Below, one piece after another: positions 1,698 through 61,994 of a DNA stretch of 64,000 nt. Position 1 is the stretch's first letter; every line of letters begins with the position of its first letter. The notes beneath the pieces are model-generated. The model was not told the DNA's origin, did not search any database, and was given only the letters and a program-made list of their open reading frames with translations. A program made the position numbers and the translations under genes. Source of the DNA: Actinomycetota bacterium. GTDB taxonomy: Bacteria; Actinomycetota; Acidimicrobiia; Acidimicrobiales; Ilumatobacteraceae. The stretch covers positions 1 to 64,000 of the forward strand of contig SXUP01000016.1 in the NCBI GenBank assembly GCA_005790505.1, written 5' to 3'.

Positions 1698-1703
1698 TAA
1701 GGT
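1698..1703 (+). promoter_or_regulatory. -10 element TAAGGT, leaderless geometry
   Basis: TAAGGT ends six bases before the ATG at 1710, and no Shine-Dalgarno sequence is seen. One of ten such TANNNT-N6-start arrangements in the window. Confidence 0.5.
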
Positions 1704-1709
1704 CTTTAT

Positions 1710-2912
1710 ATGCAAGATCTTGATGTCCACCTCGGCGGAAGTCGACCATTTGGTCTTGGGTATTGGCCGTTGCCTGAGGATGAGCCAGGTGTAGAGATTC
1801 CACGAGAGTCAATCAGATTGATTTCACCCGATGGTGCACTTGTTCGTGGACTTTTGTGGACACCTCCACGTGGTCAAAAATGGAAGACAGCAATTATTTT
1901 GACGCATCCGCGTGGTGATTTCAGTGTGCACTACGCCTGTCCTTTATTGGCAGCAGCAGGGTATGCGGTTTTGGGATTTTCTACCCGCTACATCAACAAC
2001 GACACAGATTGTTTGCATGAAAACTGCATCATCGATGTAAAGACGGCATTTGACGAGGTGATGCGACGTGGCGCCGAAGCGGTTGTGTTGCTTGGCAACT
2101 CAGGGGGCGGTTCGCTGATGGCAATGGCCAATGCACAACTCGGAATTGGTGACGGCTGGATTGGAATGGCAGCACATCCAGGTGAAGGGGTTTTTATGTT
2201 GCAGGTAATCGACCCGTCCGTGGCGGACGAGGACGACCCGTTCAGTCGCAACCCTGAACTAGATATGTACAACCCCGATAACGGTTGGCGCCCTTGGCCA
2301 GAGCGCAGCAATTATGACCCAAAGTGGCTTGCTCTTTATCGGGCGGCGCAAGTGGCTCGGGTGGCGCGCATTGATGAAGTCGCGCAAAAATCTTTGACTG
2401 ACGCCGAGGCCGCTGGATTGGCGTTAGTCGGGATAGATAAAGTTAAAAACCTGGAACTTTGGAGGGATTTGCGAGCCCGTCGAGTGTTCACCAAGTATCT
2501 GACGATTTATCGGACTTTGGCTGATCCAGCCTATTTGGACTTGACAATTGACCCTGATGATCGTCCAATGGGAAGTCTTTTTGCATTTCCTGACCCTTTT
2601 GAGGCCAATTATGGTCGAGGTGGGCTGGCCCGAACCATGACTAATCGGGGATGGCTGAGCACCTGGTCGGGGCTGTCAAGCCATGCCAAGTTGGCTTCCA
2701 CGATGCCCCAAGTCAGGGTGCCGACGATTTTGGTGCATCCGACCGCTGATACGGAGATTCGGGTCTGGCAAGCCAAGGAAATAGTCGCCAATGCGGGAGC
2801 AGCCGACATTACATATCACGAGATGAAAGGTGCGCCGCACTACCTTGAGGGCCATCGGCAAAAAGCTATTGAGGTCGTGGTGGACTGGCTGCGGGCTAGA
2901 TTCCCGTCCTGA
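1710..2912 (+). CDS. Alpha/beta hydrolase of unknown substrate
   Basis: The 400-residue protein has an alpha/beta-hydrolase core: an oxyanion-region motif TAIILTHPRGD, a nucleophile elbow GNSGGGSL (Ser near 130), and a C-terminal acid and base in HPTADTEIRVWQ and GAPHYLEGHRQ. There is no signal peptide, so it is probably cytosolic. A long insert (about 170-290) between elbow and C-terminal residues forms a large cap. The fold fits an esterase, lipase or dienelactone-hydrolase relative, but nothing identifies the substrate. It sits 69 bases after the HtrA gene and just before the ribosomal leader, and probably has its own promoter at 1698-1703. Confidence 0.8.
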   Translation: MQDLDVHLGGSRPFGLGYWPLPEDEPGVEIPRESIRLISPDGALVRGLLWTPPRGQKWKTAIILTHPRGDFSVHYACPLLAAAGYAVLGFSTRYINNDTDCLHENCIIDVKTAFDEVMRRGAEAVVLLGNSGGGSLMAMANAQLGIGDGWIGMAAHPGEGVFMLQVIDPSVADEDDPFSRNPELDMYNPDNGWRPWPERSNYDPKWLALYRAAQVARVARIDEVAQKSLTDAEAAGLALVGIDKVKNLELWRDLRARRVFTKYLTIYRTLADPAYLDLTIDPDDRPMGSLFAFPDPFEANYGRGGLARTMTNRGWLSTWSGLSSHAKLASTMPQVRVPTILVHPTADTEIRVWQAKEIVANAGAADITYHEMKGAPHYLEGHRQKAIEVVVDWLRARFPS

Positions 2913-3162
2913 AAGACTTTTGGAATAAGGGCGATCGCCCCGCCAAATAACCAAGTTCTGCCGATAGGGTTTTGGTTTCCTGAATGGGGGTTCGCCCTCG
3001 CTCAAGAGTATGACCGTCGTTTGGTCCAAACAATCGACGTCTGTGTAGGCCGCCTCGGTGGAACCGCATGGCACAACCCATCTAGGTGCTCCGCCGACAT
3101 AGTCGTGCGGAGCATTTGCATGAAGTAAGCAAATTTTTAACACAAGAGAAAAAGGTTGCCAA
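2913..3162 (+). promoter_or_regulatory. Structured leader upstream of rplC
   Basis: This 250-base gap has no credible gene. Its main feature is a strong hairpin at 3087-3114: TGCTCCGC pairs with GCGGAGCA, and inside it CGAC pairs with GTCG around an ATA loop with one bulged T, about 12 pairs in all. It ends 48 bases before the rplC start. Two other palindromes occur, GGGCGATCGCCC (2929-2940) and GTTTGGTCCAAAC (3019-3031). There is no T-run after the hairpin, so an autoregulatory leader of the ribosomal cluster is as likely as a terminator of the upstream gene. No convincing promoter hexamers were found. Confidence 0.5.
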
Positions 3163-3801
3163 ATGGCACAAAGAGCGATCGTCGGCGAAAAGGTCGGCAT
3201 GACACAGATTTGGGGAGATGATCAGCGCATCATCCCCGTCACCGTGTTGCGTGTCGACCCTGCGCGAATTGTTCAGGTCAAAACAACTGAGCGAGACGGC
3301 TACAACGCTGTTCAAGTGACTTTTGGCAACCAGGATGCCAGCAAACTAAATAAGCCAGAGGCCGGACACTTCGCCAAGGCTGGTGTGCAAGCTGGTCGTC
3401 GTCTTGTTGAATTGCGTCTTGACTCTGTTGATGGATTTGAAGTCGGTAAAGAAATTTGTGTTGATACGTTGACTGCTGGAGAAAAAGTTGATGTCACTGC
3501 GGTCAGTCGCGGTAAAGGTTTTGCTGGTGGAATGAAGCGCCACAATTTCAGCGGACAAGGGGCCAGTCACGGTAATCACAAGCATCATCGTGCTCCTGGT
3601 TCAATCGGATCATGTTCATTTCCGGGTCGTGTTCTCAAAGGTTTGCGGATGGCCGGGCATATGGGACACGACCAAGTGACCACGCTCAACCTTGTTGTCG
3701 TGCAGGCCGATCTTGAGCGCGGCTTGTTGTTGGTGCGCGGTGCAGTGCCCGGACCCAACGGTGGCGTTGTCATCGTTCGTAACGCAGTGAAGGCAAACTG
3801 A
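3163..3801 (+). CDS. rplC: Large ribosomal subunit protein uL3
   Basis: The 212-residue product is L3, recognised by VGEKVGMTQIW at the N-terminus and by the long loop GASHGNHKHHRAPGSIG that reaches toward the peptidyl-transferase centre. The ATG follows an AAAAGG ribosome-binding site. It is the first gene of the continuous ribosomal run and is followed two bases later by rplD. Its long structured leader suggests that this gene, not rpsJ, heads the transcript here. Confidence 0.97.
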   Translation: MAQRAIVGEKVGMTQIWGDDQRIIPVTVLRVDPARIVQVKTTERDGYNAVQVTFGNQDASKLNKPEAGHFAKAGVQAGRRLVELRLDSVDGFEVGKEICVDTLTAGEKVDVTAVSRGKGFAGGMKRHNFSGQGASHGNHKHHRAPGSIGSCSFPGRVLKGLRMAGHMGHDQVTTLNLVVVQADLERGLLLVRGAVPGPNGGVVIVRNAVKAN

Positions 3802-3803
3802 AT

Positions 3804-4714: not shown

Positions 4715-4721
4715 GCAAATC

Positions 4722-19551: not shown

Positions 19552-20895
19552 ATGCTTCACTTTGGTACCGACGGTGTTCGCGGAGTTGCGATCGACGAAC
19601 TCACTTCAGAACTAGTTCGCGATCTTGGCCGTGCTATTGCTCGCGTCTTGCAACCCGCTGCCATTGTTGTCGGTCGCGATACCCGCCAGAGTGGTCCAAT
19701 TATTGAGGCAGCGTTAATAGAGGGAATTGCGGCGGAGGGAGTGCCCGTTCACATGTTGGGTGTTGCACCGACACCAGCAGTTGCCTTCATCTCAGAGCGC
19801 TACAACTGGGTTGGAGTGGTAGTGACTGCATCACACAATCCATGGCAAGACAATGGAATCAAAGTATTTGCTGCCGGTGGGACAAAACTTACCGATTTCC
19901 AGCAGATTGAGGTTGAGCGAGAATGGCATGCCATAACTTCTGTAGATGATGGGGCGCCAGAAGCGCTCGTGCACGAAGCAAGTCATCTTTTGCAGGAATA
20001 CATCACCCATCGTGTGTCAATTGTTGGAGCGGGCAGATTGCAGGGTATGGCAGTTGTTTTGGACTGCGCCAATGGCGCGATGAGCAGTGTTGCACCGGAT
20101 GTTTTTAGGGCAGTTGGGGCCGATGTCACGGTCATCAATGAGTCGCCAAATGGCACGAATATAAATGCCCAATGTGGGGCTGCGTCACCCTCAGGGCTAT
20201 CTGCTGCCGTAAGTGCCGCATTACAAGTTGATGTTGGCATCGCCTTTGACGGAGACGGTGACCGGCTGATTGCAGTTGATGATTGCGGCACAATCGTAGA
20301 TGGCGATCGATTAATCGCCTTGGCAGCCACTGACTTGGCTGATCGTGGTTTGCTGCGTAATCGTGCAGTTGCAGTGACAGTCATGACCAACATTGGCTTT
20401 CACAAAGCAATGGACGCGCATGAAATAGATGTCGTAGTTACATCCGTCGGTGATCGAAATATTTTGCTCGCACTTGAGCAACGGGATTTAGTTTTAGGTG
20501 GTGAACAAAGTGGACATATCGTTCATCGAGCTCATGCGACCACGGGTGATGGACTCTTGGCTGCGTTGTTGCTGGTTGAATTTTTGCACCGCACACAACG
20601 GCCATTATCCCGGCATGCAGATGACATCATGATTTCGTATCCGCAGGTTCTGATCAACATCAGAACACCAGAGCAGGTATTTGCGCCAGCCGATCAATTT
20701 GTCCAAGAGATTGCCAATGCACAGCATGTCTTGGGCAAAGATGGACGGGTATTGGTTCGTTCATCTGGAACGGAGCCAATGGTGCGTGTCATGGTCGAGG
20801 CCGGCACCATTGAGATTGCACAACGAGTAGCAACAGAACTAGCAACTGCTGTTGCAGAGGCCTGTGGTGGGGATATGCAGGTCGGTAGCCTGTAG
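19552..20895 (+). CDS. glmM: Phosphoglucosamine mutase GlmM
   Basis: The 447-residue enzyme converts glucosamine-6-phosphate to glucosamine-1-phosphate for UDP-GlcNAc and peptidoglycan synthesis. Seen directly: the N-terminal LHFGTDGVRGVA, the phosphoserine loop VTASHNPWQDNGIKVF, the metal loop FDGDGDRLIAVD, and the sugar/phosphate loop VRSSGTEPMVRVMVE. The gene follows rpsI, as in other Actinomycetota, and precedes glmS by three bases, placing two consecutive amino-sugar steps together. Confidence 0.96.
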   Translation: MLHFGTDGVRGVAIDELTSELVRDLGRAIARVLQPAAIVVGRDTRQSGPIIEAALIEGIAAEGVPVHMLGVAPTPAVAFISERYNWVGVVVTASHNPWQDNGIKVFAAGGTKLTDFQQIEVEREWHAITSVDDGAPEALVHEASHLLQEYITHRVSIVGAGRLQGMAVVLDCANGAMSSVAPDVFRAVGADVTVINESPNGTNINAQCGAASPSGLSAAVSAALQVDVGIAFDGDGDRLIAVDDCGTIVDGDRLIALAATDLADRGLLRNRAVAVTVMTNIGFHKAMDAHEIDVVVTSVGDRNILLALEQRDLVLGGEQSGHIVHRAHATTGDGLLAALLLVEFLHRTQRPLSRHADDIMISYPQVLINIRTPEQVFAPADQFVQEIANAQHVLGKDGRVLVRSSGTEPMVRVMVEAGTIEIAQRVATELATAVAEACGGDMQVGSL

Positions 20896-20898
20896 TCC

Positions 20899-33858: not shown

Positions 33859-33864
33859 TACGCT
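33859..33864 (+). promoter_or_regulatory. -10 element TACGCT, leaderless geometry
   Basis: TACGCT ends six bases before the ATG at 33871, with no Shine-Dalgarno sequence. The identical hexamer at the same spacing precedes the ferredoxin gene at 47300. Confidence 0.5.
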
Positions 33865-33870
33865 TTGATT

Positions 33871-39028: not shown

Positions 39029-39050
39029 CAGCCTTGAACGGTAGTTGGCG

Positions 39051-39056
39051 TAGCGT
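39051..39056 (+). promoter_or_regulatory. -10 element TAGCGT, leaderless geometry
   Basis: TAGCGT ends six bases before the ATG at 39063. The six bases AAAGGG could also act as a very close ribosome-binding site, so this case is ambiguous. Confidence 0.4.
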
Positions 39057-39062
39057 AAAGGG

Positions 39063-42019: not shown

Positions 42020-42040
42020 GCCTTGGTAGAGTGAGGGGGC

Positions 42041-43147
42041 ATGGTTCACCCTCTCCCTCGTCGGGGGCTTCGAGCCCTCCTTTGTGTTCTAGCCCTCCTC
42101 GGGGCGAACTCCTTTTTGGTTCTTGGTCCCGTTGGGGCGGGGCAGCTAAGGGCTGCCGGGGTAGACGACAAATCCCGTGAGGTCGCCGCTTTGGCCGACG
42201 AACTAGAGCGGCTGATAGATCGGATGAACTCCCTGGGTGAGGATTACGCCGAGGCCTTGACCTTGCAAGATGATCTTGCCATCGAACTAAAAGCGGCCAC
42301 CGAGGAGGTCGCTCGGACTGAGCAAGAGTTGGCCCAGATGCGTGGCACTTTGTACGTAGCAGCGGTGTCACAGTTTATGCAGGGTGGACGAAAAAGCACT
42401 CTTACTAATTTGCTGGCTAGCACCGATCGGGTGCAGGACTCGTTGCAGCGCAAGCAATTTACATCCATTGCATTAAACGCCGGCTCAATGTCGAGCGACA
42501 GACTAGACACATTGGCAACTGATCTGAAGAAACAACGAAAGAAACTTGAGAAAAAACAAGAGCAGGCAGAAAAACTTGCCATGACCGTCCTCAGTCGTCA
42601 ATCTGCAGCCGAAGAGTTAGCTGTTGTCTACGAACAACGCCAGGCTAGTGCAACTGGTGAACTTGCAGTTCTGCTGCGCCTCGAGCGTGATCGCAGAAGT
42701 CAATTGGCATTTGAAGAAGCCAAGAGAATCGCTGACGGCTTCAGCAAAAATTACGCCTCTTCGCGAAATCAATACAAAAACTTGCCCAAAGTTTCCGCCC
42801 AAAACCAGACTGTCGTCAACGCAGCCCTCTCTCAATTAGGTGTCCCGTATCGATACGCCCGCAGTAGTCCGGGCGTGGCCTTTGATTGTTCGGGCCTCAC
42901 AAGTTATGCGTGGGCAAAAGCAGGTGTCGGAATGCCGCGCAACTCAAGGGCACAATTCAATTCGTTACCTCATGTTCCAAAGTCAATGGCGATGCCTGGT
43001 GACTTAGTTTTCTCTGGAAGCCCCATTCATCATGTGGGAATCTATTTAGGTGGTGGTCGAATGGTGCATGCTCCGCGTTCTGGTGATGTGGTCAAAATTG
43101 GTGCCATCAACTGGGGTCGCGTCGTTGGTGTTGCTCGTCCCGGCTAA
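42041..43147 (+). CDS. Secreted NlpC/P60 peptidoglycan endopeptidase with coiled coil
   Basis: The 368-residue protein has a signal peptide (about 1-36, LCVLALLGANSFLVLGPVGAG), a long coiled-coil region (about 45-235, including KKQRKKLEKKQEQAEKLA) and a C-terminal NlpC/P60 domain (about 250-368). The domain has Cys in AFDCSGLTSYAWAKAG and His in HHVGIYLGGGRMVHAP. This is the layout of the RipA/CwlO-type hydrolases that cut stem peptides during actinobacterial cell separation; the coiled coil probably binds an activator. It begins 21 bases after guaA. Confidence 0.92.
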   Translation: MVHPLPRRGLRALLCVLALLGANSFLVLGPVGAGQLRAAGVDDKSREVAALADELERLIDRMNSLGEDYAEALTLQDDLAIELKAATEEVARTEQELAQMRGTLYVAAVSQFMQGGRKSTLTNLLASTDRVQDSLQRKQFTSIALNAGSMSSDRLDTLATDLKKQRKKLEKKQEQAEKLAMTVLSRQSAAEELAVVYEQRQASATGELAVLLRLERDRRSQLAFEEAKRIADGFSKNYASSRNQYKNLPKVSAQNQTVVNAALSQLGVPYRYARSSPGVAFDCSGLTSYAWAKAGVGMPRNSRAQFNSLPHVPKSMAMPGDLVFSGSPIHHVGIYLGGGRMVHAPRSGDVVKIGAINWGRVVGVARPG

Positions 43148-43182
43148 TGAGCCCTCAATCTTGACGAAGTACCGTAGAAGTC

Positions 43183-44205
43183 GTGCAGGGGATCGATGAA
43201 GTACGCGTGGAGCAGTGGCTCGATAAAAATGTCGAGGGAGTCGAGGGTCCCTATCAGTTCACATTAATTGCGGGTGGTCGTAGTAATCTCACGTTCCTTG
43301 TTGCAGATGCACACGCGACGCAATTTGTCCTGCGGCGTCCGCCACTTGGTCATGTTCTCGCCACTGCTCACGACATGGCGCGTGAACACAAGATAATAAG
43401 TGCTGTCGGAAAATCGTCTGTTCCGGTGCCACGCACGCTTGGATTATGTATGGATGAAACAGTCAATGGCGCACCTTTTTATGTGATGTCTTTCGTGGAA
43501 GGCAAAGTACTTTCGTCGGCCGAGGACGGGGAACTCCTGTCCCCAACCCTTCGGAAGCGCGCCAGTGAGCATCTTGTCGATGTGTTGGCAGACCTACACG
43601 CCGTTGACATTGATGCTGTGGGTCTGGGCGATCTGGCAAAACGCCAAGGTTATGTTGAGCGCCAAGTCAAGCGCTGGAGCACGCAGTGGGACAACTCTAA
43701 AACTCGGGAGTTACCTGCGATTGAGGAAGTCAGCCGGCTGTTGGCAGAAAATATTCCAGAGCAACAAAGTGTTGCTATCGCCCACGGTGACTATCGCTTT
43801 GGGAACTGCCTGACAAGTCTTGCCACCGGAAGTATTACGGCTGTTTTGGATTGGGAATTATGCACGCTTGGAGACCCACTCGCTGATCTGGGATATATCG
43901 GCGTGTACTGGAACGACTACGGACATCCCATCATGCGCGCCAATGATCCATCTGGCATCGAAGGGTTCTTGAACTACGACGACTTGGTGCAACGCTATGC
44001 CACGAGGACAGGTCGTGACGTCAGCAAAATTGGCTATTACAAGGCTTTTTCAAGTTGGCGTTTGGCTGTTATAAGTGAGGGCGTATATGCGCGCTATTTG
44101 CACGGTGCAATGGGAGACGACGGATTTGATCCAGAACCAATGAAAGACAGTACAACCCAATTAGCCGAGTCGGCACTTGAATCTTTGAAAGGTGCATTGA
44201 AATGA
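43183..44205 (+). CDS. APH-family phosphotransferase (ACAD10/11 N-domain type)
   Basis: The 340-residue protein is kinase-like: FTLIAGGRSNLTFLVADA, FVLRRPP, then the catalytic HGDYRFGNCL and metal-binding VLDWELCTLGDPLADLGY. These match the aminoglycoside/choline kinase fold, especially the branch linked to acyl-CoA dehydrogenases, which phosphorylates hydroxyacyl substrates. Antibiotic resistance is not implied. GTG start at 43183, with TACCGT ending seven bases before it. The stop overlaps the ATG of the next gene (ATGA). Confidence 0.88.
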   Translation: MQGIDEVRVEQWLDKNVEGVEGPYQFTLIAGGRSNLTFLVADAHATQFVLRRPPLGHVLATAHDMAREHKIISAVGKSSVPVPRTLGLCMDETVNGAPFYVMSFVEGKVLSSAEDGELLSPTLRKRASEHLVDVLADLHAVDIDAVGLGDLAKRQGYVERQVKRWSTQWDNSKTRELPAIEEVSRLLAENIPEQQSVAIAHGDYRFGNCLTSLATGSITAVLDWELCTLGDPLADLGYIGVYWNDYGHPIMRANDPSGIEGFLNYDDLVQRYATRTGRDVSKIGYYKAFSSWRLAVISEGVYARYLHGAMGDDGFDPEPMKDSTTQLAESALESLKGALK

Positions 44206-44977: not shown

Positions 44978-45022
44978 GTGTAGTTGTAACACCAAATTAG
45001 TGTTATAGTGTAGTTTCTACAC
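44978..45022 (+). promoter_or_regulatory. Paired palindromic operator before the VWA gene
   Basis: Two 15-bp palindromes share the left half GTGTAGTT and the right arm ACAC: 44978-44992 (GTGTAGTTGTAACAC) and 45008-45022 (GTGTAGTTTCTACAC). Their centres are 30 bp apart, about three helical turns. AACAC/GTGTT (44988-45004) forms a third inverted repeat between them. A -10-like TATAGT (45004-45009) overlaps the second box. This fits cooperative binding of a dimeric repressor. Confidence 0.6.
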
Positions 45023-45050
45023 TTTATTGCTCATGAAAGGAGCCCCCCAT

Positions 45051-46517: not shown

Positions 46518-47263
46518 AGTTGTGTCACTTTCACCTTAAGCGTGGAACTGCGAAAAGATTGCATGGCTTCTTCAATGTTGGCACCATCGGCAAAGGTCTC
46601 CAGAACGTGACGAACAAAGAGACCCTTTGTGGCTTTTGCCTCGTGTCCAACAGCCTTACCAGTTTTTGCCAAAAAAGATACCTCAATAAAATTCACACGG
46701 TCGCTGAAAACAGCGCGATGTTCAATCGTCAGTAAATCCAATACGGGACGTTTTTTTGCAAAGGCGCGAACTGCTGATGAAACAGATTCACGCCAAAAGT
46801 TCGACATCACGCCAAGTTCGCCGAGCCGCGCACCCATCTTGAGGCGATAGTCGGGGAGTGCATCGCCAGCAGTGATGATTCCGGCCAGACCAGAGGGCAC
46901 GAGCAGTGACCGGAGCGCAGACTTTCTAATTGCCAATGGCAAAGAGGCGAGGTCAAGGTGATCCCACACAACGCCGGTATATCGCTGCCATGCAGGCAAT
47001 GTCGGCGATGTAAGAAGTGTCAAGTTGGCATGTTGAGCGCGTTCAAGATGTGCGCCACTGACACCAAGAAGTTTTTGAGAGCCACCGTCTTGAGTGCTTA
47101 AAGCTGTAATCACACGTTTGCGTTGTGCTGCAAGTTCAGTAAATGTCCCCGCTAAAAGTGACCAACGCGATCCAGGTATCCCGCCAGTTGCTTTGCCTTC
47201 TGAAGGGGGTAGCAAGATTATTGGTAAAATGCGTTGAGACGATGTCAAAGATCTAGTTCCCAC
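46514..47263 (-). CDS. yaaA: YaaA family peroxide-stress protein
   Basis: The roughly 249-residue protein has the YaaA (DUF328) signatures IILLPPSEGKATGG, YTGVVWDHLD, PDYRLKMGARLGEL and the late KATKGLFVRHVLE. In E. coli YaaA limits free iron during hydrogen peroxide stress and binds DNA. The frame extends to 47338, overlapping the divergent ferredoxin gene. I prefer the GTG at 47263, which has CAGAAT exactly six bases upstream in the leaderless geometry used by neighbours. Confidence 0.88.
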   Translation of the reverse strand: MGTRSLTSSQRILPIILLPPSEGKATGGIPGSRWSLLAGTFTELAAQRKRVITALSTQDGGSQKLLGVSGAHLERAQHANLTLLTSPTLPAWQRYTGVVWDHLDLASLPLAIRKSALRSLLVPSGLAGIITAGDALPDYRLKMGARLGELGVMSNFWRESVSSAVRAFAKKRPVLDLLTIEHRAVFSDRVNFIEVSFLAKTGKAVGHEAKATKGLFVRHVLETFADGANIEEAMQSFRSSTLKVKVTQL

Positions 47264-47287
47264 TTGCTGATTCTGCCCGATTAGTTC

Positions 47288-47293
47288 TACGCT
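47288..47293 (+). promoter_or_regulatory. -10 element TACGCT of the ferredoxin-P450 unit
   Basis: TACGCT ends six bases before the ferredoxin ATG. A -35-like TTGCTG lies at 47264-47269, 18 bases upstream. The divergent yaaA promoter overlaps this 36-base interval, so the two units may be expressed together or compete. Confidence 0.55.
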
Positions 47294-47299
47294 GGCACT

Positions 47300-47494
47300 A
47301 TGCAAATACGGGTGGATGCCGAAAAATGCCAAGGTCATAGCCGTTGTTATGCCCTAGCACCCGAACTGTTTGACATTGATGATTATGGCAATGCTCACGA
47401 ACTAAACGACGGGGTTGTGCCGCCCGAACTAGAAGTGCGAGCCCGACTAGCACAGGCAAATTGTCCAGAGTTCGCCATCATCATCGGTGATTGA
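47300..47494 (+). CDS. 3Fe-4S-type ferredoxin, P450 partner
   Basis: The 64-residue protein is a small single-cluster ferredoxin: CQGHSRCYALAPELFDIDDYG and the terminal LAQANCPEFAI. His replaces the second Cys of the usual CX2CX2C motif, a feature of the ferredoxins encoded next to actinobacterial cytochromes P450, consistent with a 3Fe-4S or alternatively ligated cluster. It is followed 48 bases later by a P450 gene and very probably passes electrons to it. Confidence 0.9.
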   Translation: MQIRVDAEKCQGHSRCYALAPELFDIDDYGNAHELNDGVVPPELEVRARLAQANCPEFAIIIGD

Positions 47495-47542: not shown

Positions 47543-48775
47543 ATGCCATCCATTTACGGACCAGTCACTGACTGGGCAAGCGACTTTGATCATGCCGAGC
47601 CGGCTTATAACGCCAATGTTCATCAGATTTGGGATGACTTGCTGAACAAGCAGCAGTGCCCCGTGGCCCACACGGAGCGTTATGGGGGTGCATGGTTGCC
47701 GATCACGCATGAACATGTGCGTGAGATTGCCTATGACACAGAGCATTTCACGAGTCGTTCCGTTGTTGTGGGTGTCACAAAGCCGAGTCAATTTGACCCT
47801 CAACCACCACCATCGCCGATTGGCAACGCGCCGCCAATCAGTAGTGACCCACCATTTCATGCAGAAGCAAGACGCTTGCTTCTGCCAGCGTTCTCCCCAA
47901 AAAAAATTGATCCGTGGGCCCCAGAAATTCGTCGGATATGTCATCAACTGATTGACGAGATGGGTGATGTGCAATTTATTGATGCCGCCCAGCAATACAG
48001 TCAAGATATTCCGGTTCAAGTCATCGCCCGCATGCTTGGTTTCCCCGTCGAAGACGCAGATAAATTTCGGAACTTCGTGCACCTCGTACTTGAAAGTGTC
48101 AACGAAGATCGTGAAACCCGTCTCGCTAAGTTCATGATCTTTGACGAGTATCTAACCGTTCAGGTCAATGACCACATCTTGAATCCACGTGACGACCTGA
48201 CGACCTACCTGCTCAATGCCGAAATAATGGGCAACAAGTTGTCACCAGAACATGTAGGCGGAACAATCATTTTGCTGCTTGTGGCAGGAATTGACACAAC
48301 TTGGAGTGGAATCGGTTCGTCTCTGTGGCATTTGGCTTCCAATGCCGTTGATCGTCGTCGTTTGGTGGACAATCCTGCCATGATTCCCGTAGCCGTTGAA
48401 GAGTTCTTGCGGGCTTACGCTCCTGTCACAATGGCGCGACTCGTGCGTGAAGATTTTGATTTTCATGGGCATGCGATGAAAGAGGAAGACTGGGTCTTGC
48501 TTCCGTTCCCTGCGGCCAATCGGGATCCAAAGGTGTTCGATAACGCTGATGCCGTGATTATTGACCGCCAAGAGAACCGTCACGCCGCCTTTGGACTCGG
48601 GATTCATCGTTGTCTGGGCTCAAACTTGGCGCGACTTGAGATGAACATCGCAGTTGAGGTTTTCTTGGAGCGATTCCCTGATTTTGAGTTGAACGAGTCC
48701 GAAGAAGTGACATGGAGCGTAGGCCAGGTGCGCGGACCTCGCAAACTTCCTGTGCGTGTCACAGCCCGCTCGTAG
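47543..48775 (+). CDS. Cytochrome P450
   Basis: The 410-residue soluble monooxygenase has the I-helix oxygen-binding motif LLLVAGIDTTWSGI, the K-helix ExxR in VEEFLRAYAPV, and the haem loop AAFGLGIHRCLGSNLARLE with the thiolate Cys near 357. An AAGGAA precedes the ATG. Class I type: electrons should come from the adjacent ferredoxin and a reductase encoded elsewhere. Family features do not reveal the substrate; fatty acids, terpenes and sterols are all possible. Confidence 0.96.
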   Translation: MPSIYGPVTDWASDFDHAEPAYNANVHQIWDDLLNKQQCPVAHTERYGGAWLPITHEHVREIAYDTEHFTSRSVVVGVTKPSQFDPQPPPSPIGNAPPISSDPPFHAEARRLLLPAFSPKKIDPWAPEIRRICHQLIDEMGDVQFIDAAQQYSQDIPVQVIARMLGFPVEDADKFRNFVHLVLESVNEDRETRLAKFMIFDEYLTVQVNDHILNPRDDLTTYLLNAEIMGNKLSPEHVGGTIILLLVAGIDTTWSGIGSSLWHLASNAVDRRRLVDNPAMIPVAVEEFLRAYAPVTMARLVREDFDFHGHAMKEEDWVLLPFPAANRDPKVFDNADAVIIDRQENRHAAFGLGIHRCLGSNLARLEMNIAVEVFLERFPDFELNESEEVTWSVGQVRGPRKLPVRVTARS

Positions 48776-48778
48776 ACT
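48773..48778 (+). promoter_or_regulatory. -10 element TAGACT, leaderless geometry
   Basis: TAGACT overlaps the P450 stop codon and ends six bases before the helicase GTG. No Shine-Dalgarno sequence is present. Confidence 0.5.
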
Positions 48779-48784
48779 GACCGA

Positions 48785-51019
48785 GTGTCCGTCGCAAATC
48801 CTGACCAACTCAACCCCAATCAACACGAGGCGGTCTTTCATGTTGGTGGTCCGCTTTTAGTTATTGCAGGTGCTGGCAGCGGCAAGACCCGCGTTCTCAC
48901 TCAACGCATCGCTCATCTAGTGCGAACAGGGGTACACCCCATGCATATTTTGGCCATCACCTTTACCAACAAGGCTGCCGACGAAATGCGGCATCGGGTG
49001 GCAGACCTTGTTGGAGAAGTTGCAAGCAAAATGTGGGTCAGCACTTTTCATAAGGCCTGTGTTCGCATGTTGCGCATGAACGCCGACCTCATCGGCTATA
49101 ACAAAGCCTTCACGATTTATGATTCACAAGACAGCAAGCGTCTCGTTGGCTATGTCATTCGAGACATGGGTCTTGACCCACGCAAGTTTTCAGCGGGCGC
49201 ATCACAAGCACGAATCAGTCTCTGGAAAAACGAACTCATTGATGTTGGCAAGGCCCATGACATCGCCAGCAATGTCGTCGATAAAAAGCACGCCGAAATT
49301 TTTGCCGAATACCAGAACCGTCTTTTTCGGGCCGGTGCGATGGACTTTGATGATCTCTTGCTCAATACGGTCAGACTTTTGCGCGAATGCCCGGATGTGT
49401 TGGCCATGTATCAGACCCGCTTCAAACACATTCTGATTGACGAATACCAGGACACTAACCAGGCCCAAAACCAAATCGTACTGATGCTGGGCGCGATACA
49501 TCACAATGTTTGTGTTGTCGGCGATACGGACCAAAGTATTTACAAGTTTCGTGGTGCAGATTTTCGCAATCTGACAGAATTTGAAACTGCATTCCCTGAT
49601 GCAACAGTGGTAGTGCTGGCGCAAAATTATCGCAGCACGCAGACTATTCTTACGGCTGCAAACGCAGTCATCACGCACAACACTGGTCGCCATCCAAAAG
49701 ACCTATGGACGGCTCACGGAAGCGGTGACAAAATCGTTCGGTATTTCGCCCAAGATGAACACGACGAAAGCGGTTGGGTGGCGAGCACCGCGGAACATTT
49801 GCACGAAGCAGATGCTCGTCCATGGCGTGAAATGGCGGTGTTTTATCGCGCCAACTCGCAAAGCCGCGTCATGGAAGAAGCGCTTATGCGTCGCGGAATT
49901 CCGTACAAGGTTGTAGGCGGAACCAAGTTCTACGAACGCCGAGAAGTTCGCGATGCGTTGGCATATTTGCGAGCAGCAGCCAATCCAGACGATGAAATAA
50001 GTCTGAAGCGCATCATCAATGTCCCAAAGCGTGGCATTGGCGATACCAGCCTTGCCAAAGTTGATGCCTGGGCTCATCAACACGGCATCAGTTTTCGTCA
50101 AGCACTTAGCGATTGCGCCAACACGGGTGTTGGCGCAGCAGGAGTCCGTGGTATCAAAGTTTTTCTTGAACTGATGGATGCACTTCATCATGCTATTTCA
50201 GACGGGCCGTCTGAAGTTCTAAAGATGGCAATGGACCAGAGTGGTTACATCCGCGAACTCGAAGAACAAGACACCGTTGAATCAGCGGGCCGACTCGAAA
50301 ATGTGGCGGAGTTCATCGGGTCCGCAGCTGAATACACAGTTGTTGATGAGTTTCTTGAGCAGGTGTCACTCGTTGCTGACACCGATGAGCTTGACGATGA
50401 AAATCATATTGTCCTAATGACAATGCACGCGGCAAAAGGTTTAGAGTTCCCGATTGTGTTCATAATCGGATGCGAAGATGGGGTATTCCCACACAATCGC
50501 AGCCTGTTGGACCCTCAAGAACTAGAAGAAGAACGACGTCTCGCCTATGTTGGCATCACGCGCGCTCGTGAGCAGTTGTATGTGTCGCATGCCTGGCAAC
50601 GCATGTTATTCGGGCAAACCCAGTACAACCCACCGTCACGATTCTTGTCCGAAATTCCTTCTGAACTTTTTGAACGTCAAGGTGCAGTTGACTCCGGAGT
50701 AGACAGTGGTCGAGTGTTCGGTCGAAGTGCATCTGACTGGAACAATTCAGAACTTCCGCAATACAGAAAAGCAGAGGGTTCATCACCTGCCCGTTCATAT
50801 GACAAGCCATCAACAGCGCGCGCTGAGCGGCGTGGCTCTGATGAGTTCAGCCATCTCAAAGTAGGAGACGATGTAGAACATTCAATTTTTGGAGAAGGTG
50901 TCATCATTGAACTGCGTGGTACTGGCGAAAAGGCTGAGGCAACTGTTCGTTTTTCTCGTGTTGGTACAAAGCACCTTGCCCTTGGATGGGCACCACTGAA
51001 GAAACTCTCCGATGATTAG
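48785..51019 (+). CDS. pcrA: UvrD/PcrA-type DNA helicase
   Basis: The 744-residue superfamily 1 helicase has motif I VIAGAGSGKTRVLTQRI, Ia AITFTNKAADEMR, II ILIDEYQDTNQAQ, III VVGDTDQSIYKFRGAD, IV VLAQNYRSTQTIL, V VLMTMHAAKGLEFPIVFI and VI RRLAYVGITRARE. It unwinds 3'-5' in nucleotide excision repair and removes RecA or RNA polymerase from DNA. The C-terminal residues (about 690-744, VGDDVEHSIFGEGVIIEL) are the Tudor-like RNA-polymerase-binding region of PcrA. It starts with GTG 9 bases after the P450. Confidence 0.95.
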   Translation: MSVANPDQLNPNQHEAVFHVGGPLLVIAGAGSGKTRVLTQRIAHLVRTGVHPMHILAITFTNKAADEMRHRVADLVGEVASKMWVSTFHKACVRMLRMNADLIGYNKAFTIYDSQDSKRLVGYVIRDMGLDPRKFSAGASQARISLWKNELIDVGKAHDIASNVVDKKHAEIFAEYQNRLFRAGAMDFDDLLLNTVRLLRECPDVLAMYQTRFKHILIDEYQDTNQAQNQIVLMLGAIHHNVCVVGDTDQSIYKFRGADFRNLTEFETAFPDATVVVLAQNYRSTQTILTAANAVITHNTGRHPKDLWTAHGSGDKIVRYFAQDEHDESGWVASTAEHLHEADARPWREMAVFYRANSQSRVMEEALMRRGIPYKVVGGTKFYERREVRDALAYLRAAANPDDEISLKRIINVPKRGIGDTSLAKVDAWAHQHGISFRQALSDCANTGVGAAGVRGIKVFLELMDALHHAISDGPSEVLKMAMDQSGYIRELEEQDTVESAGRLENVAEFIGSAAEYTVVDEFLEQVSLVADTDELDDENHIVLMTMHAAKGLEFPIVFIIGCEDGVFPHNRSLLDPQELEEERRLAYVGITRAREQLYVSHAWQRMLFGQTQYNPPSRFLSEIPSELFERQGAVDSGVDSGRVFGRSASDWNNSELPQYRKAEGSSPARSYDKPSTARAERRGSDEFSHLKVGDDVEHSIFGEGVIIELRGTGEKAEATVRFSRVGTKHLALGWAPLKKLSDD

Positions 51020-51049: not shown

Positions 51050-51055
51050 TACAAT
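51050..51055 (+). promoter_or_regulatory. -10 element TACAAT, leaderless geometry
   Basis: TACAAT ends six bases before the ATG at 51062; the intervening GGAGCC contains GGAG but too close to the start for a normal ribosome-binding site. A TTGTCC lies 15 bases upstream. Confidence 0.5.
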
Positions 51056-51061
51056 GGAGCC

Positions 51062-51934
51062 ATGACATTTCGACCCGATATCGGTGCCATTGACTTGATG
51101 ATTGGTTTTCCATTTCCCGACAAACATGTCGTGTATGACTATTTGCGGGCAGTTTCAAAAGACAAAGACTCACAAGATCAACAATTTCCCGTCGGATATA
51201 TGTTCAAGGACACGCCCGCCGAACTCGGTGACGATGATCCCATTGACTACACATTTTCCAGGATGAACTCTCACAACATCTCGGCTGGATTATTTAGTTT
51301 GTCCGGTATTGCTCTCGAAGCCCGACGTAAGTTTCCTGATCGTGTGTTTCTCTCTCTCGAGATAGATCCCAATGACATCACTGGAACTGTACGCGAGATC
51401 AGAAGCACCCATGCTCAGCACGGACTCACGGCGGTCACAACTTTTCCGGCGGGTTGCAATCCCCAAGTTCCTGTCAGTGATCGTCGGTACTACCCGATCT
51501 ATCAAACATGCATCGATCTGAATTTGCCCATCATCGCTAACGCAGGCGTTCCAGGGCCGCGTGTTCCCGGGGCTTGTCAACATGTCGAGCATTTTGATCA
51601 AGTTTGCTACGACTTTCCAGAACTCCGAATCGTGATGCGCCACGGCGCTGAGCCATGGGAAGAACTTGCCGTCAAACTGATGCTCAAGTGGCCCGGGCTT
51701 TATTACATGACAAGTGCATTCGCTCCGAGGTATTTTCCGCGAGCAATTATTGATTACGCCAACACTCGTGGTGTCAATAAGATTATGTACGCAGGATATT
51801 TTCCAGCCGGCCTCACAATTGAGCGGATATTCACCGAATTGCCCGATGTCGCATTCAGGGACCATGTGTGGCCCCATTTCCTCCGCAACAACGCGATCAA
51901 GGTGTTCAATTTGGGGCTTGAACCACAAGAATAA
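51062..51934 (+). CDS. Amidohydrolase family 2 (metal-dependent, TIM barrel) protein
   Basis: The 290-residue protein resembles the amidohydrolase_2 family of decarboxylases and hydrolases: IGAIDLMIGFPF, SLEIDPNDITGTVREIRSTHAQHGLTAV, YQTCIDLNLPIIANAGVPGPRV, VMRHGAEPWEELAVKLM and MYAGYFPAGLTIERIF. The usual N-terminal HXH metal site is not obvious (D-x-M at that point), so the metal site may be altered. I start at ATG 51062 rather than TTG 51029, which would add 11 residues. Confidence 0.78.
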   Translation: MTFRPDIGAIDLMIGFPFPDKHVVYDYLRAVSKDKDSQDQQFPVGYMFKDTPAELGDDDPIDYTFSRMNSHNISAGLFSLSGIALEARRKFPDRVFLSLEIDPNDITGTVREIRSTHAQHGLTAVTTFPAGCNPQVPVSDRRYYPIYQTCIDLNLPIIANAGVPGPRVPGACQHVEHFDQVCYDFPELRIVMRHGAEPWEELAVKLMLKWPGLYYMTSAFAPRYFPRAIIDYANTRGVNKIMYAGYFPAGLTIERIFTELPDVAFRDHVWPHFLRNNAIKVFNLGLEPQE

Positions 51935-52663: not shown

Positions 52664-52669
52664 TATAGT
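52664..52669 (+). promoter_or_regulatory. -10 element TATAGT, leaderless geometry
   Basis: TATAGT ends six bases before the GTG at 52676, with no Shine-Dalgarno sequence, directly after the upstream terminator T-run. Confidence 0.6.
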
Positions 52670-52675
52670 TCGCCA

Positions 52676-53503
52676 GTGCGGAGAATTTTTTCCACAATTT
52701 TTGGTTGCTTGAGCATCATCTGTCTGTGCTTTTGGATAATTTCGATGGTGCTGATCGGATTTGTCTCTTCTTCGCAGTCTGCAAGGTCATCTGTAAAATC
52801 GGCGCTCTCGAACACCGCTGTGCGCGACGCAATCGCAGATGAATTTGTCATAAAACTCGAAGAAGGCGATGGCGACGTTGGGTCGGAGTTTATATATTCA
52901 GTAGCGAGACCCCTAATCGTCAACGCTGTTTCTGATGTCTTGGGTGTGCCAGCCGTGAAAGACTTCGCTGGTGATGTTGCCGTAAAAATGTATGCGGTAT
53001 ACGTTGAAGACGCCCCTGCGACCAAGATTGATATTTCCTATCTCACAGAAACCGCTCTGGGAGCGATTCGGCTTGTTGACATCTCGGTTTCCAAAGATGA
53101 TGATCCACAACTAGACCCAATTAATGCCGAAAAAAAACAGGATGACCCCGACATCAAGTCGATTCGGGATTTGGCTCAATCAGGTGTCTGGCTTTTCTTG
53201 ATTCTTGGATTACTACTGCAGATAGCAGCGTGGTTTTTGAGTAAGGCAGGACTCTGGAAGAAGTTGCAGTATCTCGGAATGCGGCTCGCCATTGGTGGGG
53301 TCATCTTGTATGTTGCACTCACTGTTGCAAAGTCAAGGATTCCTCAGTCAATGTCTGACAACGAGGCTGCCGCAAAGGCAATTACAGATCTTGTAACAAG
53401 TCCGATGCTGACGCGATTCTTGATCATGACAATCGTGGGCGTTGTCGCTGGTGTCGCAGGTTTTGTTCTGCACGGCAAAAACGCTTCAACAGTTAAGTCT
53501 TGA
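52676..53503 (+). CDS. Four-helix membrane protein of unknown function
   Basis: The 275-residue protein has four predicted membrane segments: about 8-30 (FGCLSIICLCFWIISMVLIGFV), 170-190 (WLFLILGLLLQIAAWFL), 203-222 and 243-265. A soluble domain of about 130 residues lies between the first two and is probably extracytoplasmic. It resembles in outline small actinobacterial membrane proteins with an N-terminal anchor and a loop of SARSSVKSALSNTAVRDAIADEFV type, but I do not recognise a named family. The end overlaps the convergent HPP gene by 11 bases. Confidence 0.75.
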   Translation: MRRIFSTIFGCLSIICLCFWIISMVLIGFVSSSQSARSSVKSALSNTAVRDAIADEFVIKLEEGDGDVGSEFIYSVARPLIVNAVSDVLGVPAVKDFAGDVAVKMYAVYVEDAPATKIDISYLTETALGAIRLVDISVSKDDDPQLDPINAEKKQDDPDIKSIRDLAQSGVWLFLILGLLLQIAAWFLSKAGLWKKLQYLGMRLAIGGVILYVALTVAKSRIPQSMSDNEAAAKAITDLVTSPMLTRFLIMTIVGVVAGVAGFVLHGKNASTVKS

Positions 53504-54005: not shown

Positions 54006-55271
54006 TTAGGTGCGACCGAAGCGCTTGGACTCATCGGTGAATTGTTTGGCAATCTCAGTCGTGATTGAAGCGTTTGTTCCAGCAATTGACTTTGATAAGT
54101 CTTGTCGTGTGACGTGACTTGGCTCAAAGCCGTTGCGGGCGCGATCAAATGCGATGCTGGCTGCACGTTGTGAAGCGAGTTCGATGTCTCCTGGAGTGAA
54201 ACCTTCTGTGGTCTTCACCAACTCATCAATATCAATGTCCCGAGAATCTAGACGACTGAGCATGCTCGTCCACAACGCATTGCGGGCCACTTTATCCGGA
54301 GGACCAATTGGAATAACGAGGTCAAATCGGCCTGGTCGCAAAACAGCGGGATCAATGTTATTGACAAAGTTTGTGGCGCAGACAAGCAAATGACCAGCTG
54401 GCGTTCGGAACGACGGAATCATTTTGAGCAGTTCATTTACCACGCCGCGCGTGCCGGGACTCTCTGAACGAGCCGTCGCAATCTCATCTACTTCATCGAT
54501 GAATACGACGATGTTTTCAAGTTTGAGTAATTCGGTGAGGGCGTTGCGGAGTTCGGCTGCAAGAGACAATTGACCACTGTCTAATTTCGATGGAAGCAAT
54601 TCAACAAAAGGCCAGCCCAGTCGCCCGGCAATGGCGCGGGCAAAAGTTGTCTTGCCTGTTCCGGGAGGGCCAAACAACATGACTGCCGATGGCGCGTTTA
54701 CACCAATCTTGCCGGCCAACTCTGGGTCAGCAAGAGGTGCAATTATGCGGTTTTCGATCAAAGTTTTTTCGGTATCCATACCTGCAACTCGATCCCACAA
54801 TGTTGCATCGCAAAGTTCTCCACCCCACTGGTCAAGAACCCGCATTGCAGAAGGCTCAATGGGTTCAGATTTTTCGTAGAGCACAAGACCGTGAATGGGA
54901 TGAAAGCCCCGATTGACGAGAGCAGTTTGTCCCGCTTCAAAATTGGTTAGTAGCGCTGAGATCTTGCGTACTCCTTCGTGCAACAATTTTTCTTCAAGAC
55001 GCTGCAACATTGCAGAGCCAATTCCTTGATGCCGCCAACTGGGGCTAATTGCAACAATATTTATCCAGGCGTCATCATTGCTGATTCGACTGGACACCAG
55101 GCCAACTACTTCGTTTTCGGCAACAGCGACAATTGCAGGCGAACCAGCACTCGTATCGGCAACAAACTTCGCAATGTCAACTGGCCTTGAATCGGCGACA
55201 CCACGACACAATTCAAGAAGACGCACTGCCGAAGACATGTCACCAGGCACTAAATCGCGAACATTGAACAT
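54006..55271 (-). CDS. GNAT acetyltransferase - AAA+ ATPase fusion protein
   Basis: The 421-residue protein joins two domains in one frame. Residues 1-135 are a GNAT acetyltransferase with the acetyl-CoA loop VAISPSWRHQGIGSAML and FEAGQTALVNRGFHPI. Residues about 155-400 are an AAA+ ATPase of the classic AAA type: Walker A GPPGTGKTT (201-209), Walker B VVFIDE (255-260), sensor-1 Asn301, and arginines 312/315 in VLRPGRFDLVIP, then a small helical lid (EGFTPGDIELASQRAAS). No protease or membrane anchor is present. AAA domains of this type remodel proteins; the GNAT part might acetylate the target. Confidence 0.92.
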   Translation of the reverse strand: MFNVRDLVPGDMSSAVRLLELCRGVADSRPVDIAKFVADTSAGSPAIVAVAENEVVGLVSSRISNDDAWINIVAISPSWRHQGIGSAMLQRLEEKLLHEGVRKISALLTNFEAGQTALVNRGFHPIHGLVLYEKSEPIEPSAMRVLDQWGGELCDATLWDRVAGMDTEKTLIENRIIAPLADPELAGKIGVNAPSAVMLFGPPGTGKTTFARAIAGRLGWPFVELLPSKLDSGQLSLAAELRNALTELLKLENIVVFIDEVDEIATARSESPGTRGVVNELLKMIPSFRTPAGHLLVCATNFVNNIDPAVLRPGRFDLVIPIGPPDKVARNALWTSMLSRLDSRDIDIDELVKTTEGFTPGDIELASQRAASIAFDRARNGFEPSHVTRQDLSKSIAGTNASITTEIAKQFTDESKRFGRT

Positions 55272-55277
55272 GTCCTC

Positions 55278-55283
55278 ATACTA
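55278..55283 (-). promoter_or_regulatory. -10 element TAGTAT, leaderless geometry
   Basis: On the minus strand TAGTAT ends six bases before the ATG of the GNAT-AAA+ gene; GAGGAC lies between and is too close to be a standard ribosome-binding site. Confidence 0.5.
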
Positions 55284-56061: not shown

Positions 56062-56433
56062 CTACAGCGCCAGGTGACGAGTTATTTCTGAGAAAAATTT
56101 CTCGGGCGACTTGTCACATGCTGCAATCTCGCTAGCGCTCATCAACAAAGTCACCTCACCGGATGAATCTCGTAAAACAACCGCAGGATATTTGCCGTTG
56201 ACGCAGCGCCGCACATCCTCAGGTTGATCGTTGCGATGAAATGTTTCAAATTTTATGCCTAGTTCACTGTCAAGTTTTGTTTGACAACCGCGCCATTTGG
56301 ACTTTTCACGAAACAGCGAATGTGTGATGTCGCACAGACTGCAATGGCGCACACCGAGTCTGGCACCAACCCAATAAGACATTTCACCCCACAGTGTCGC
56401 ATCGGCGTCATAGACACCAATTAATTGAGGCAT
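56062..56433 (-). CDS. Unrecognised 123-residue protein with Cys pair
   Basis: The protein is soluble, with LIGVYDADATLWGEMSYWVGARLGVRHCSLCDITHSLF at its N-terminus and five Cys, including a CSLC pair that could bind metal or form a redox disulfide. The second half has PAVVLRDSSGEVTLLMSASEIAAC. The order of strands and the CXXC suggest a thioredoxin-like or small alpha/beta fold, but I cannot name a family. It lies between an SDR gene and another unknown gene on the same strand. Confidence 0.7.
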   Translation of the reverse strand: MPQLIGVYDADATLWGEMSYWVGARLGVRHCSLCDITHSLFREKSKWRGCQTKLDSELGIKFETFHRNDQPEDVRRCVNGKYPAVVLRDSSGEVTLLMSASEIAACDKSPEKFFSEITRHLAL

Positions 56434-56439
56434 GTCTCA

Positions 56440-56445
56440 AAACTA
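56440..56445 (-). promoter_or_regulatory. -10 element TAGTTT, leaderless geometry
   Basis: On the minus strand TAGTTT ends six bases before the ATG at 56433. A TTGGCA lies 19 bases further upstream (56465-56470). Confidence 0.5.
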
Positions 56446-56547: not shown

Positions 56548-57030
56548 TTATTTACCATCGCGTAAATCGATGTACAAAGTTTTTCGATTCTCAACGATGG
56601 GTCGCACATCGGTGGGTAGGGCGAGTTGCTCAGGAGTCAAAGTTCGGTTGTTGCAGTCAGTGAAGTTTCGAGTGTTGGGAGTATGCGTCACCAAACATGT
56701 CGCATCTGAATCTGCTGGGTGTCCGTAATACACCTGCCATCCCCGCGTGGGGTCAGCGCCAGTGTGGTCGAGCACAATTGAGCGCGTACCGTTGGGGCTT
56801 TTGAGGTCAGGGAACAAAAGTGGCCCGCCCGTGTCGACAGCACGAGCAATTGACTCAACAGGACCTACTTCAAAGATTCGGGCGCCCAGATTGGTCATAT
56901 TTGCGGGGCGATTTGAGATGTAGCTAGCCATACCCCACGTTGCCAACATCAGTAGGGCAAAAAAGGCAATTCCCAGCCCAACAGGAACAACAGCACGAGC
57001 AAAAGGGGAGCGAAGTTTTGGAAGTGGCAC
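56548..57030 (-). CDS. Single-pass membrane protein of unknown function
   Basis: The 160-residue protein has one membrane segment near its N-terminus (about 13-37, VVPVGLGIAFFALLMLATWGMASYI) followed by a polar domain, probably outside the membrane. That domain has two Cys (CLVTHTPNTRNFTDC) which could pair, and ends LPTDVRPIVENRKTLYIDLRDGK. I do not recognise it. The GTG start has CACAAT six bases upstream, close to the leaderless pattern. It is divergent from the B12-binding gene. Confidence 0.7.
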   Translation of the reverse strand: MPLPKLRSPFARAVVPVGLGIAFFALLMLATWGMASYISNRPANMTNLGARIFEVGPVESIARAVDTGGPLLFPDLKSPNGTRSIVLDHTGADPTRGWQVYYGHPADSDATCLVTHTPNTRNFTDCNNRTLTPEQLALPTDVRPIVENRKTLYIDLRDGK

Positions 57031-57087
57031 ATCTCTATTGTGGCTGGTTGGAGCGACGTTGCCCTCACGGCGTAAGGTTTAACTTCT

Positions 57088-57492
57088 GTGAAGCGCCTCT
57101 ACCGTGTCGTCGTCGCCACGCCTGGTTTGGACGGTCATGACCGGGGGGCCAAGACCATCACCCGCGCTCTTCGCGACCATGGTTTTGAAGTCATCTACAC
57201 GGGTCTGCACCAAACTCCTGAGCAGATTGCCGAGACTGCGTTGCAAGAAGACGTTGATGTCGTGGGCTTGTCTCTTCTGTCGGGTGCGCATCTCACCCTT
57301 TTCCCGCGGGTGATGGAGGAACTGCGCACAAGAGATCTTGGGGATATTTTGATTTTTGGCGGTGGCGTGATTCCAGATGCCGATGCGCGTGTGTTGAACG
57401 AGCAAGGCGTCTCCAAGATTTTTGGTCCAGGCTCCTCTCTAAAAGACATCTGTATTTGGCTTGAAGAAGAACTTGACAACAGGGAGCAATAA
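57088..57492 (+). CDS. Stand-alone cobalamin-binding subunit of methylmalonyl-CoA-type mutase
   Basis: The 134-residue protein is a B12-binding domain: VVVATPGLDGHDRGAKTITRALRDHGFEVIY contains the DXHXXG cobalamin-ligating motif, followed by DVDVVGLSLLSGAHLTLFP and ILIFGGGVIPDAD, which mark the GXGG region. It is the small subunit of a split acyl-CoA mutase; the catalytic subunit is not in the window. GTG start. It abuts sucC with no gap, so it is co-transcribed with succinyl-CoA synthetase, consistent with propionate/methylmalonyl-CoA entry into the TCA cycle. Confidence 0.92.
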   Translation: MKRLYRVVVATPGLDGHDRGAKTITRALRDHGFEVIYTGLHQTPEQIAETALQEDVDVVGLSLLSGAHLTLFPRVMEELRTRDLGDILIFGGGVIPDADARVLNEQGVSKIFGPGSSLKDICIWLEEELDNREQ

Positions 57493-61059: not shown

Positions 61060-61121
61060 TAAATAGCCCTATTTCAAAGAACCAAGTTTCAACACACCTC
61101 ACTTAACTCGCCCATATCCCT

Positions 61122-61127
61122 TAGAAT
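61122..61127 (+). promoter_or_regulatory. -10 element TAGAAT, leaderless geometry
   Basis: TAGAAT (five of six to TATAAT) ends six bases before the metF GTG. No Shine-Dalgarno sequence lies between. The clearest case of the pattern. Confidence 0.65.
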
Positions 61128-61133
61128 GGTGTC

Positions 61134-61994
61134 GTGACACAAATCAGTGCTCTGTTGCGGGCAGGAAGAACTTTTTCCTTTGAATTTTTCCCGCCCAAAA
61201 ATGACGAGGCTCAGGCTGTATTGGCGCGCACGATTGTCGAACTTGAACCTTTGGCTCCGAGTTTTGTAAGTGTTACCTACGGCGCGGGTGGTTCTACGCG
61301 CGAGCGCACTCGTGATCTGGTTGTGCAGATGCGCCACGAGACAAAGATTCCCCCGATGGCTCATCTCACATGTGTGGGGCACGTGCACCAAGAAATCGAA
61401 GACATTATTGCTGCTTATGTTGAGGCCGGTGTCGAAAATGTTTTGGCTCTTGCTGGTGATTTACCCGCTGACGGAACAGATTCTCCGCCAAGTGACTACA
61501 TCTTTGCTACAGATCTGGTGGAGCACCTACGCAGTATTTCCGACATGTGTATCGGTGTCGCTGCTCACCCTGAGGGGCATCCACGGTCACCCGATATGAC
61601 ATCAGATCGCCAATACCTGGCGGCTAAGTTGCAGTTGGCTGATTTTGCAACGACACAATTTTTCTTTGAAGCAGAGCACTATGTGCGCCTTGTGAACGAA
61701 CTCGCCGATCTAGGTTGCACCAAGCCGGTGATTCCTGGAATCATGCCGGTCACAAATTTATCCCAAGTTCAGCGGATGGCTGCGATGTCAGGAACTGAGT
61801 TCCCTACATGGTTGCATGATGATTTGGCGACAATGAAAACACCAGAGGAGGTTCGTCGTGTCGGGGTTGAGGCGGCTACCCGACTGTGTGCTGAGTTGCT
61901 TGAGGCCGGTGCGCCAGGTTTGCATTTTTACACTCTCAATCGTTCGACTGCGACGAGAGAAATTTACGCAGAACTCGGACTTCCGGTTGGTTAA
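61134..61994 (+). CDS. metF: 5,10-methylenetetrahydrofolate reductase
   Basis: The 286-residue flavoenzyme makes 5-methyl-tetrahydrofolate for methionine synthesis. Signatures: FSFEFFPPKNDEAQ, FVSVTYGAGGSTRERT, MAHLTCVGH, NVLALAGDLP, and GVAAHPEGHPRSPD. The GTG start has no ribosome-binding site and a -10 element six bases upstream. Its 74-base upstream gap separates it from purH, so it has its own promoter despite the shared folate theme. Confidence 0.95.
   Translation: MTQISALLRAGRTFSFEFFPPKNDEAQAVLARTIVELEPLAPSFVSVTYGAGGSTRERTRDLVVQMRHETKIPPMAHLTCVGHVHQEIEDIIAAYVEAGVENVLALAGDLPADGTDSPPSDYIFATDLVEHLRSISDMCIGVAAHPEGHPRSPDMTSDRQYLAAKLQLADFATTQFFFEAEHYVRLVNELADLGCTKPVIPGIMPVTNLSQVQRMAAMSGTEFPTWLHDDLATMKTPEEVRRVGVEAATRLCAELLEAGAPGLHFYTLNRSTATREIYAELGLPVG

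Follow-up and report, generated by a model that had tools for sequence, protein, structure and literature searches.

Hexamers of the form TANNNT that stand a fixed short distance before start codons in this freshwater genome are very probably housekeeping sigma-70-type -10 elements of leaderless transcripts, with the transcription start predicted on the start codon itself. Because the box lies only six to nine bases before the start codon, translation is predicted to begin at the first base of the mRNA, which probably holds for about one fifth of all genes. The support computed here consists of the fixed position of the motif, its excess, its conservation, its exclusion of Shine-Dalgarno (SD) sites and a pyrimidine-purine step at the start codon. 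In addition, some of the boxes are fused with the stop codon of the gene upstream. The host belongs to the freshwater acidimicrobiians of acIV type; among named relatives, its UvrD is closest to that of an actinobacterial freshwater bin of acIV (91%) and to those of other freshwater Acidimicrobiia. Four public MAGs titled Bifidobacterium breve (L037, L038, L050 and L093) carry a UvrD 60-68% identical to that of the host, and their names look wrong.

In the 64,000-nucleotide stretch of DNA analysed here (the window), an earlier note had listed ten genes with TANNNT exactly six bases before the start codon and two near-misses at the same position. All ten hexamers and their spacings are present in the sequence as listed, and so are the near-misses CAGAAT before 47263 (minus strand) and CACAAT before 57030 (minus strand). 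Further boxes are found in the window at spacings of 7 to 9 bases, before 20899, 39028 (minus strand), 42041, 43183, 45033, 57088 and 63983. The sites are as follows.

1698..1712, plus strand: TAAGGT-N6-ATG, start 1710, upstream of a 400-aa protein.
20886..20901, plus strand: TAGCCT-N7-ATG, start 20899, long glmS-like gene; the box lies within the end of glmM.
33859..33873, plus strand: TACGCT-N6-ATG, start 33871, 58-aa ORF with a 4-base overlap with a NUDIX gene.
39026..39043, minus strand: TACCGT-N9-ATG, EamA transporter gene 38162-39028; divergent partner of 39063, absent from the earlier list.
39051..39065, plus strand: TAGCGT-N6-ATG, start 39063, alpha/beta hydrolase; divergent from 39028 (minus strand), gap 34.
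42027..42043, plus strand: TAGAGT-N8-ATG, start 42041, NlpC/P60 protein.
43170..43185, plus strand: TACCGT-N7-GTG, start 43183, APH-fold kinase.
45018..45035, plus strand: TACACT-N9-ATG, start 45033; the inverted repeat AGTGTAG-TTT-CTACACT has the box as its right arm.
47261..47275, minus strand: CAGAAT-N6-GTG, start 47263, yaaA; near-consensus.
47288..47302, plus strand: TACGCT-N6-ATG, start 47300, 64-aa ferredoxin.
48773..48787, plus strand: TAGACT-N6-GTG, start 48785, uvrD/pcrA; the TAG also serves the P450 gene 47543-48775 as its stop codon.
51050..51064, plus strand: TACAAT-N6-ATG, start 51062, amidohydrolase.
52664..52678, plus strand: TATAGT-N6-GTG, start 52676, 275-aa protein; the box is the one support for this start.
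55269..55283, minus strand: TAGTAT-N6-ATG, start 55271, GNAT-AAA ATPase.
56431..56445, minus strand: TAGTTT-N6-ATG, start 56433, 123-aa protein.
57028..57042, minus strand: CACAAT-N6-GTG, start 57030, 160-aa protein; near-consensus.
57073..57090, plus strand: TAAGGT-N9-GTG, start 57088, B12-binding-domain protein; divergent from 57030 (minus strand).
61122..61136, plus strand: TAGAAT-N6-GTG, start 61134, metF.
63968..63985, plus strand: TACGCT-N9-ATG, gene starting at 63983.

The claim that most of the listed genes have no SD site is borne out, with nine of the ten showing not even a 4-base match and the tenth, at 1710, a 4-base match only. Their description as unit-leading was looser, having been inferred only: just 39063 and 47300 are divergent, and uvrD at 48785 lies 9 bases behind a same-strand gene. 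For most of the other listed genes, 42-132 bases separate the start from a preceding gene on the same strand. None of the ribosomal protein genes in the window is boxed at its called start, a comparison confounded by the fact that most of them sit in one long operon run.

Several of these loci have features of their own. Divergent pairs such as the one at 39026-39065 place two predicted leaderless promoters face to face within less than 45 bases. The inverted repeat directly before the 45033 gene (45000-45035, plus strand) looks like an operator over a promoter. The glmS-like gene (20899-24294, plus strand) encodes 1131 aa, almost twice the usual length; the GlmS profile covers no more than residues 246-812, and both ends carry long additional stretches. 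At 47300-48775 (plus strand) the gene of the 64-aa 4Fe-4S ferredoxin adjoins that of the cytochrome P450, and the two proteins are likely a redox pair. Finally, the gene at 54006-55271 (minus strand) fuses a GNAT acetyltransferase to an AAA ATPase; within the genus, its full-length relatives are patchily distributed and confined to a subset of the genomes.

For a genome-wide count, we used 1.34 Mb including the window, out of a 2.01 Mb, 66-contig assembly (50% GC), and called genes from coding potential and start-codon identity only, blind to the sequence upstream of the start. On a stretch of E. coli this caller found 40 of 42 annotated genes, 32 of these 40 with the exact start; since it is exact on only about 80% of starts, the genome fractions given here are approximate. 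Among the listed starts, 47300, 52676 and 56433 were missed or placed elsewhere by the blind caller, the ferredoxin gene (47300) being missed.

The earlier note had staked its reading beforehand on a genome-wide excess of TANNNT at -12, and this excess is strong: 139 of 1195 blind-called genes carry the hexamer there, compared to a mean of 10.55 per offset between -60 and -21 (Poisson, 5e-102). The spacing of exactly six bases stands as the mode and not as a rule, because offsets -13, -14 and -15 (spacings 7, 8 and 9) are enriched too, with 54, 35 and 37 genes against the same background. On the other side, offsets -11, -10 and -9 fall below background (4, 7 and 8 genes), giving a sharp lower limit at -11. 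The proposed contrast between leading and internal genes is also found. The -12 rate is 18.2% for divergent genes; for same-strand genes it is 12.0% at gaps of at least 60 bases, 15.9% at gaps of 20-59 and 4.8% at gaps below 20. Summed over spacings 6-9, the excess amounts to 18.6% of genes overall; it is 30.3% among divergent genes and 8.5% among tightly packed ones.

The identical procedure applied to 300 kb of E. coli found TANNNT at -12 in 0 of 235 genes. In Corynebacterium, Streptomyces and Rhodococcus, leaderless genes with the same motif and offset are known. Run on a sample of Rhodococcus pRHL1, the identical script gave a weaker peak, with 6 (-12) and 4 (-13) of 124 divergent genes compared to 0.6; like the host, this sample peaks at -12/-13, but unlike the host it has no boxes at -14 or -15. 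Few boxes were found in an order-mate with 76% GC (G014), a genome on which the simple gene caller performs poorly.

The boxed genes differ from the others in how translation would begin. An SD match of at least 5 bases precedes 11 of 264 boxed genes compared to 181 of 931 others (p = 4e-11). The start codons of the boxed genes are 188 ATG, 75 GTG and a single TTG, a codon used by 44 of the 931 others. As the assembly yielded no 16S gene, we used those of genus mates; their 3′ ends keep CCTCCTTTCT, with the anti-SD present, so that genes other than the boxed ones can still use SD initiation.

Alignment of 117 spacing-6 starts brings out T at -12, A at -11 and T at -7, together with G at -3, a pyrimidine at -1 and a mild preference for G/C at -10. 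No -35 consensus appears in this alignment, no position between -42 and -14 exceeding 0.05 bits. The pyrimidine at -1 is present in 66%, 71%, 71% and 75% of genes at spacings 6, 7, 8 and 9, respectively, compared to 51% of unboxed genes, which suggests that promoters with spacing 9 may also start on the start codon. We rejected a one-codon error in the called start as the origin of the spacing-9 peak: in those genes the codon 3 bases upstream is never ATG, GTG or TTG.

The box is conserved in orthologues. For metF, TANNNT stands at exactly -12 in 29 of 29 genomes of the genus. All 30 orthologous ferredoxin loci carry a box, 24 at spacing 6 and 6 at spacing 7, with varying middle triplets (TACGCT, TAGTCT, TAGTAT, TAACAT, TAGGAT and others). 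The amidohydrolase gene keeps it in 5 of 5 loci down to 58% identity, again with variable NNN, and uvrD has TANNNT at spacing 6-9 in 66 of 81 distinct Acidimicrobiia loci, mostly without stop fusion. The closest relatives share the CAGAAT box of yaaA; in several others CACAAT-N7-ATG takes its place. The AAA gene at 55271 keeps its box in the 95%-identical relative; in six relatives further away, no box stands at the start as aligned. Accordingly, the claim that the motif settles uncertain starts holds for metF, ferredoxin, amidohydrolase and uvrD, whose orthologues keep the box, and is weaker for 55271, where only the 95%-identical relative does.

We also compared reciprocal best pairs between the host and a genus mate (G001), using only pairs with consistent starts. 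The box is kept in 24 of 34 pairs with a boxed host gene and occurs in 5 of 97 with an unboxed one (p = 9e-14), and controls shifted by 20, 30 and 40 bases have almost no boxes. Since the species compared are related, the conservation in orthologues is not fully independent evidence. Taken with the avoidance of SD sites, the near-absence of TTG and the pyrimidine before the start codon, all of which fit, it supports the earlier leaderless reading.

Could the hexamers be chance matches in a genome of 50% GC, picked out while scanning many genes? TANNNT has three fixed bases only, and the starts at 52676 and 56433 were chosen with the motif in view. Nonetheless, we give this explanation practically no weight: the genome-wide excess was counted on blind starts, the window alone has TANNNT at -12 in 7 of 75 blind-called genes compared to about 0.7 expected (p = 5e-6), and orthologues conserve the exact offset. 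It is highly improbable, too, that the motif is a feature of translation initiation or of structure (an AT-rich, unfolded stretch) in a leadered mRNA and not a promoter. The box does lie near the usual SD position, yet it has the specific form T-A-NNN-T with a variable middle, it avoids SD sites and it is far rarer before genes at gaps below 20 bases than before divergent genes. Moreover, of 20 pairs with a short divergent gap (25-44 bases), 17 are boxed, 8 of them on both sides and 9 on one.

A more serious competitor, which we regard as possible if doubtful, accepts the boxes as promoters and gives the transcripts very short leaders of 1-5 nt, at least at spacings 7-9. The enrichment of these spacings and the spacing of 9 kept in uvrD orthologues speak for it, and spacings of 8-9 could mean leaders of 1-3 nt. 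Against it stands the pyrimidine at -1 at spacings 7-9, the pattern predicted for promoters that have a longer discriminator and still begin transcription at the A or G of the start codon. We retain transcription from the start codon itself as the preferred reading. RNA polymerase, placed by the -10 box, would begin RNA synthesis at the start codon's first base, yielding an mRNA without a 5′ leader whose 5′-terminal AUG or GUG would be bound by ribosomes without an SD site. This mode would be used by about 19% of genes overall and by 30% of the divergent ones, and in compact same-strand runs the -10 box could overlap the upstream stop codon.

Such an overlap, in uvrD and others at gaps of 9-12 bases, might be an artefact in which stops supply the TA by construction, since a TAA or TAG at gap 9 automatically places TA at -12. 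We consider this unlikely on account of the T that completes the hexamer. T is the sixth base after TAA/TAG in 24 of 45 cases at gaps 9-12, compared to 22 of 136 at gaps 14-60 (p = 3e-6) and 7 of 76 at gaps 0-8, and the genus mate G001 repeats the effect (11 of 14 compared to 4 of 44, p = 2e-6). The choice of stop also shifts to TAG, with 33 TAG, 12 TAA and 8 TGA at gaps 9-12 compared to near-equal use in the comparison set (64, 72 and 73). In Acidimicrobiia further removed, the sixth base shows the same tendency less strongly and without significance (7 of 15 compared to 12 of 51). In E. coli there is no sixth-base T effect after stops at gaps 9-12; the Rhodococcus pRHL1 sample has no TAA/TAG stops at these gaps and hence offers no material for the fusion test.

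Beyond the closest lineage, the box of uvrD orthologues is mostly not a stop (TACAAT, TACACT and TAAGAT closing no long frame), and its promoter is therefore independent of the stop. Both the excess of T and these stop-free boxes led us largely to reject the uvrD box as a by-product of the upstream stop codon. The fusion of stop and -10 box is thus statistically real in the genus and not only an artefact of construction. It is likely a recurrent, selected arrangement at gaps 9-12, preferring TAG, by which the next gene of a tight same-strand run could be transcribed alone, from a leaderless promoter, with no intergenic promoter DNA. In a limited search we found no description of it in the literature, and this apparently undescribed fusion is the part of our results with some claim to novelty.

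TA-led (leaderless) genes have been described for Actinobacteria and Deinococcus-Thermus by Zheng et al. 2011 (PMC3160421). Their genes are like ours in having TANNNT about 12 bases before the start, no SD site and no leader, and in making up some 20% or more of genes; unlike in that survey, whose main text names no acidimicrobiian, the host here is a freshwater organism of 50% GC in which spacings 8-9 are clearly used. The 2011 survey scored almost every actinobacterial genome as positive, and the signal in this lineage is accordingly expected and not surprising. The cleanly testable features of TA-led genes were all observed here: box excess, lack of SD sites, ATG/GTG starts, lack of a -35 motif and conservation in orthologues.

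According to the parts of Cortes et al. 2013 (PMC3898074) drawn on here, mapped starts of Mycobacterium tuberculosis prefer C at -1 and a purine at +1, with a TANNNT -10 and no -35 motif, and 22-26% of expressed genes are leaderless, ribosomal protein genes excluded. The host shares the TANNNT -10, the lack of a -35 consensus and the pyrimidine at -1. It differs in that starts were mapped by RNA-seq in that study and are predicted here, and in the overlap with stop codons, which does not appear in those parts of the paper.

Among the papers we searched, we found no report on leaderless genes in Acidimicrobiia, acIV or Ilumatobacter. Our analysis extends the known leaderless kind of gene to an uncultured freshwater lineage, genus-wide, and provides a workable rule by which start codons can be corrected and promoters located in the genomes of this lineage without culture. 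Owing to the fusion of stop codon and -10 box, apparent operon members may be units of their own, a point of importance when regulation is read from compact genomes.
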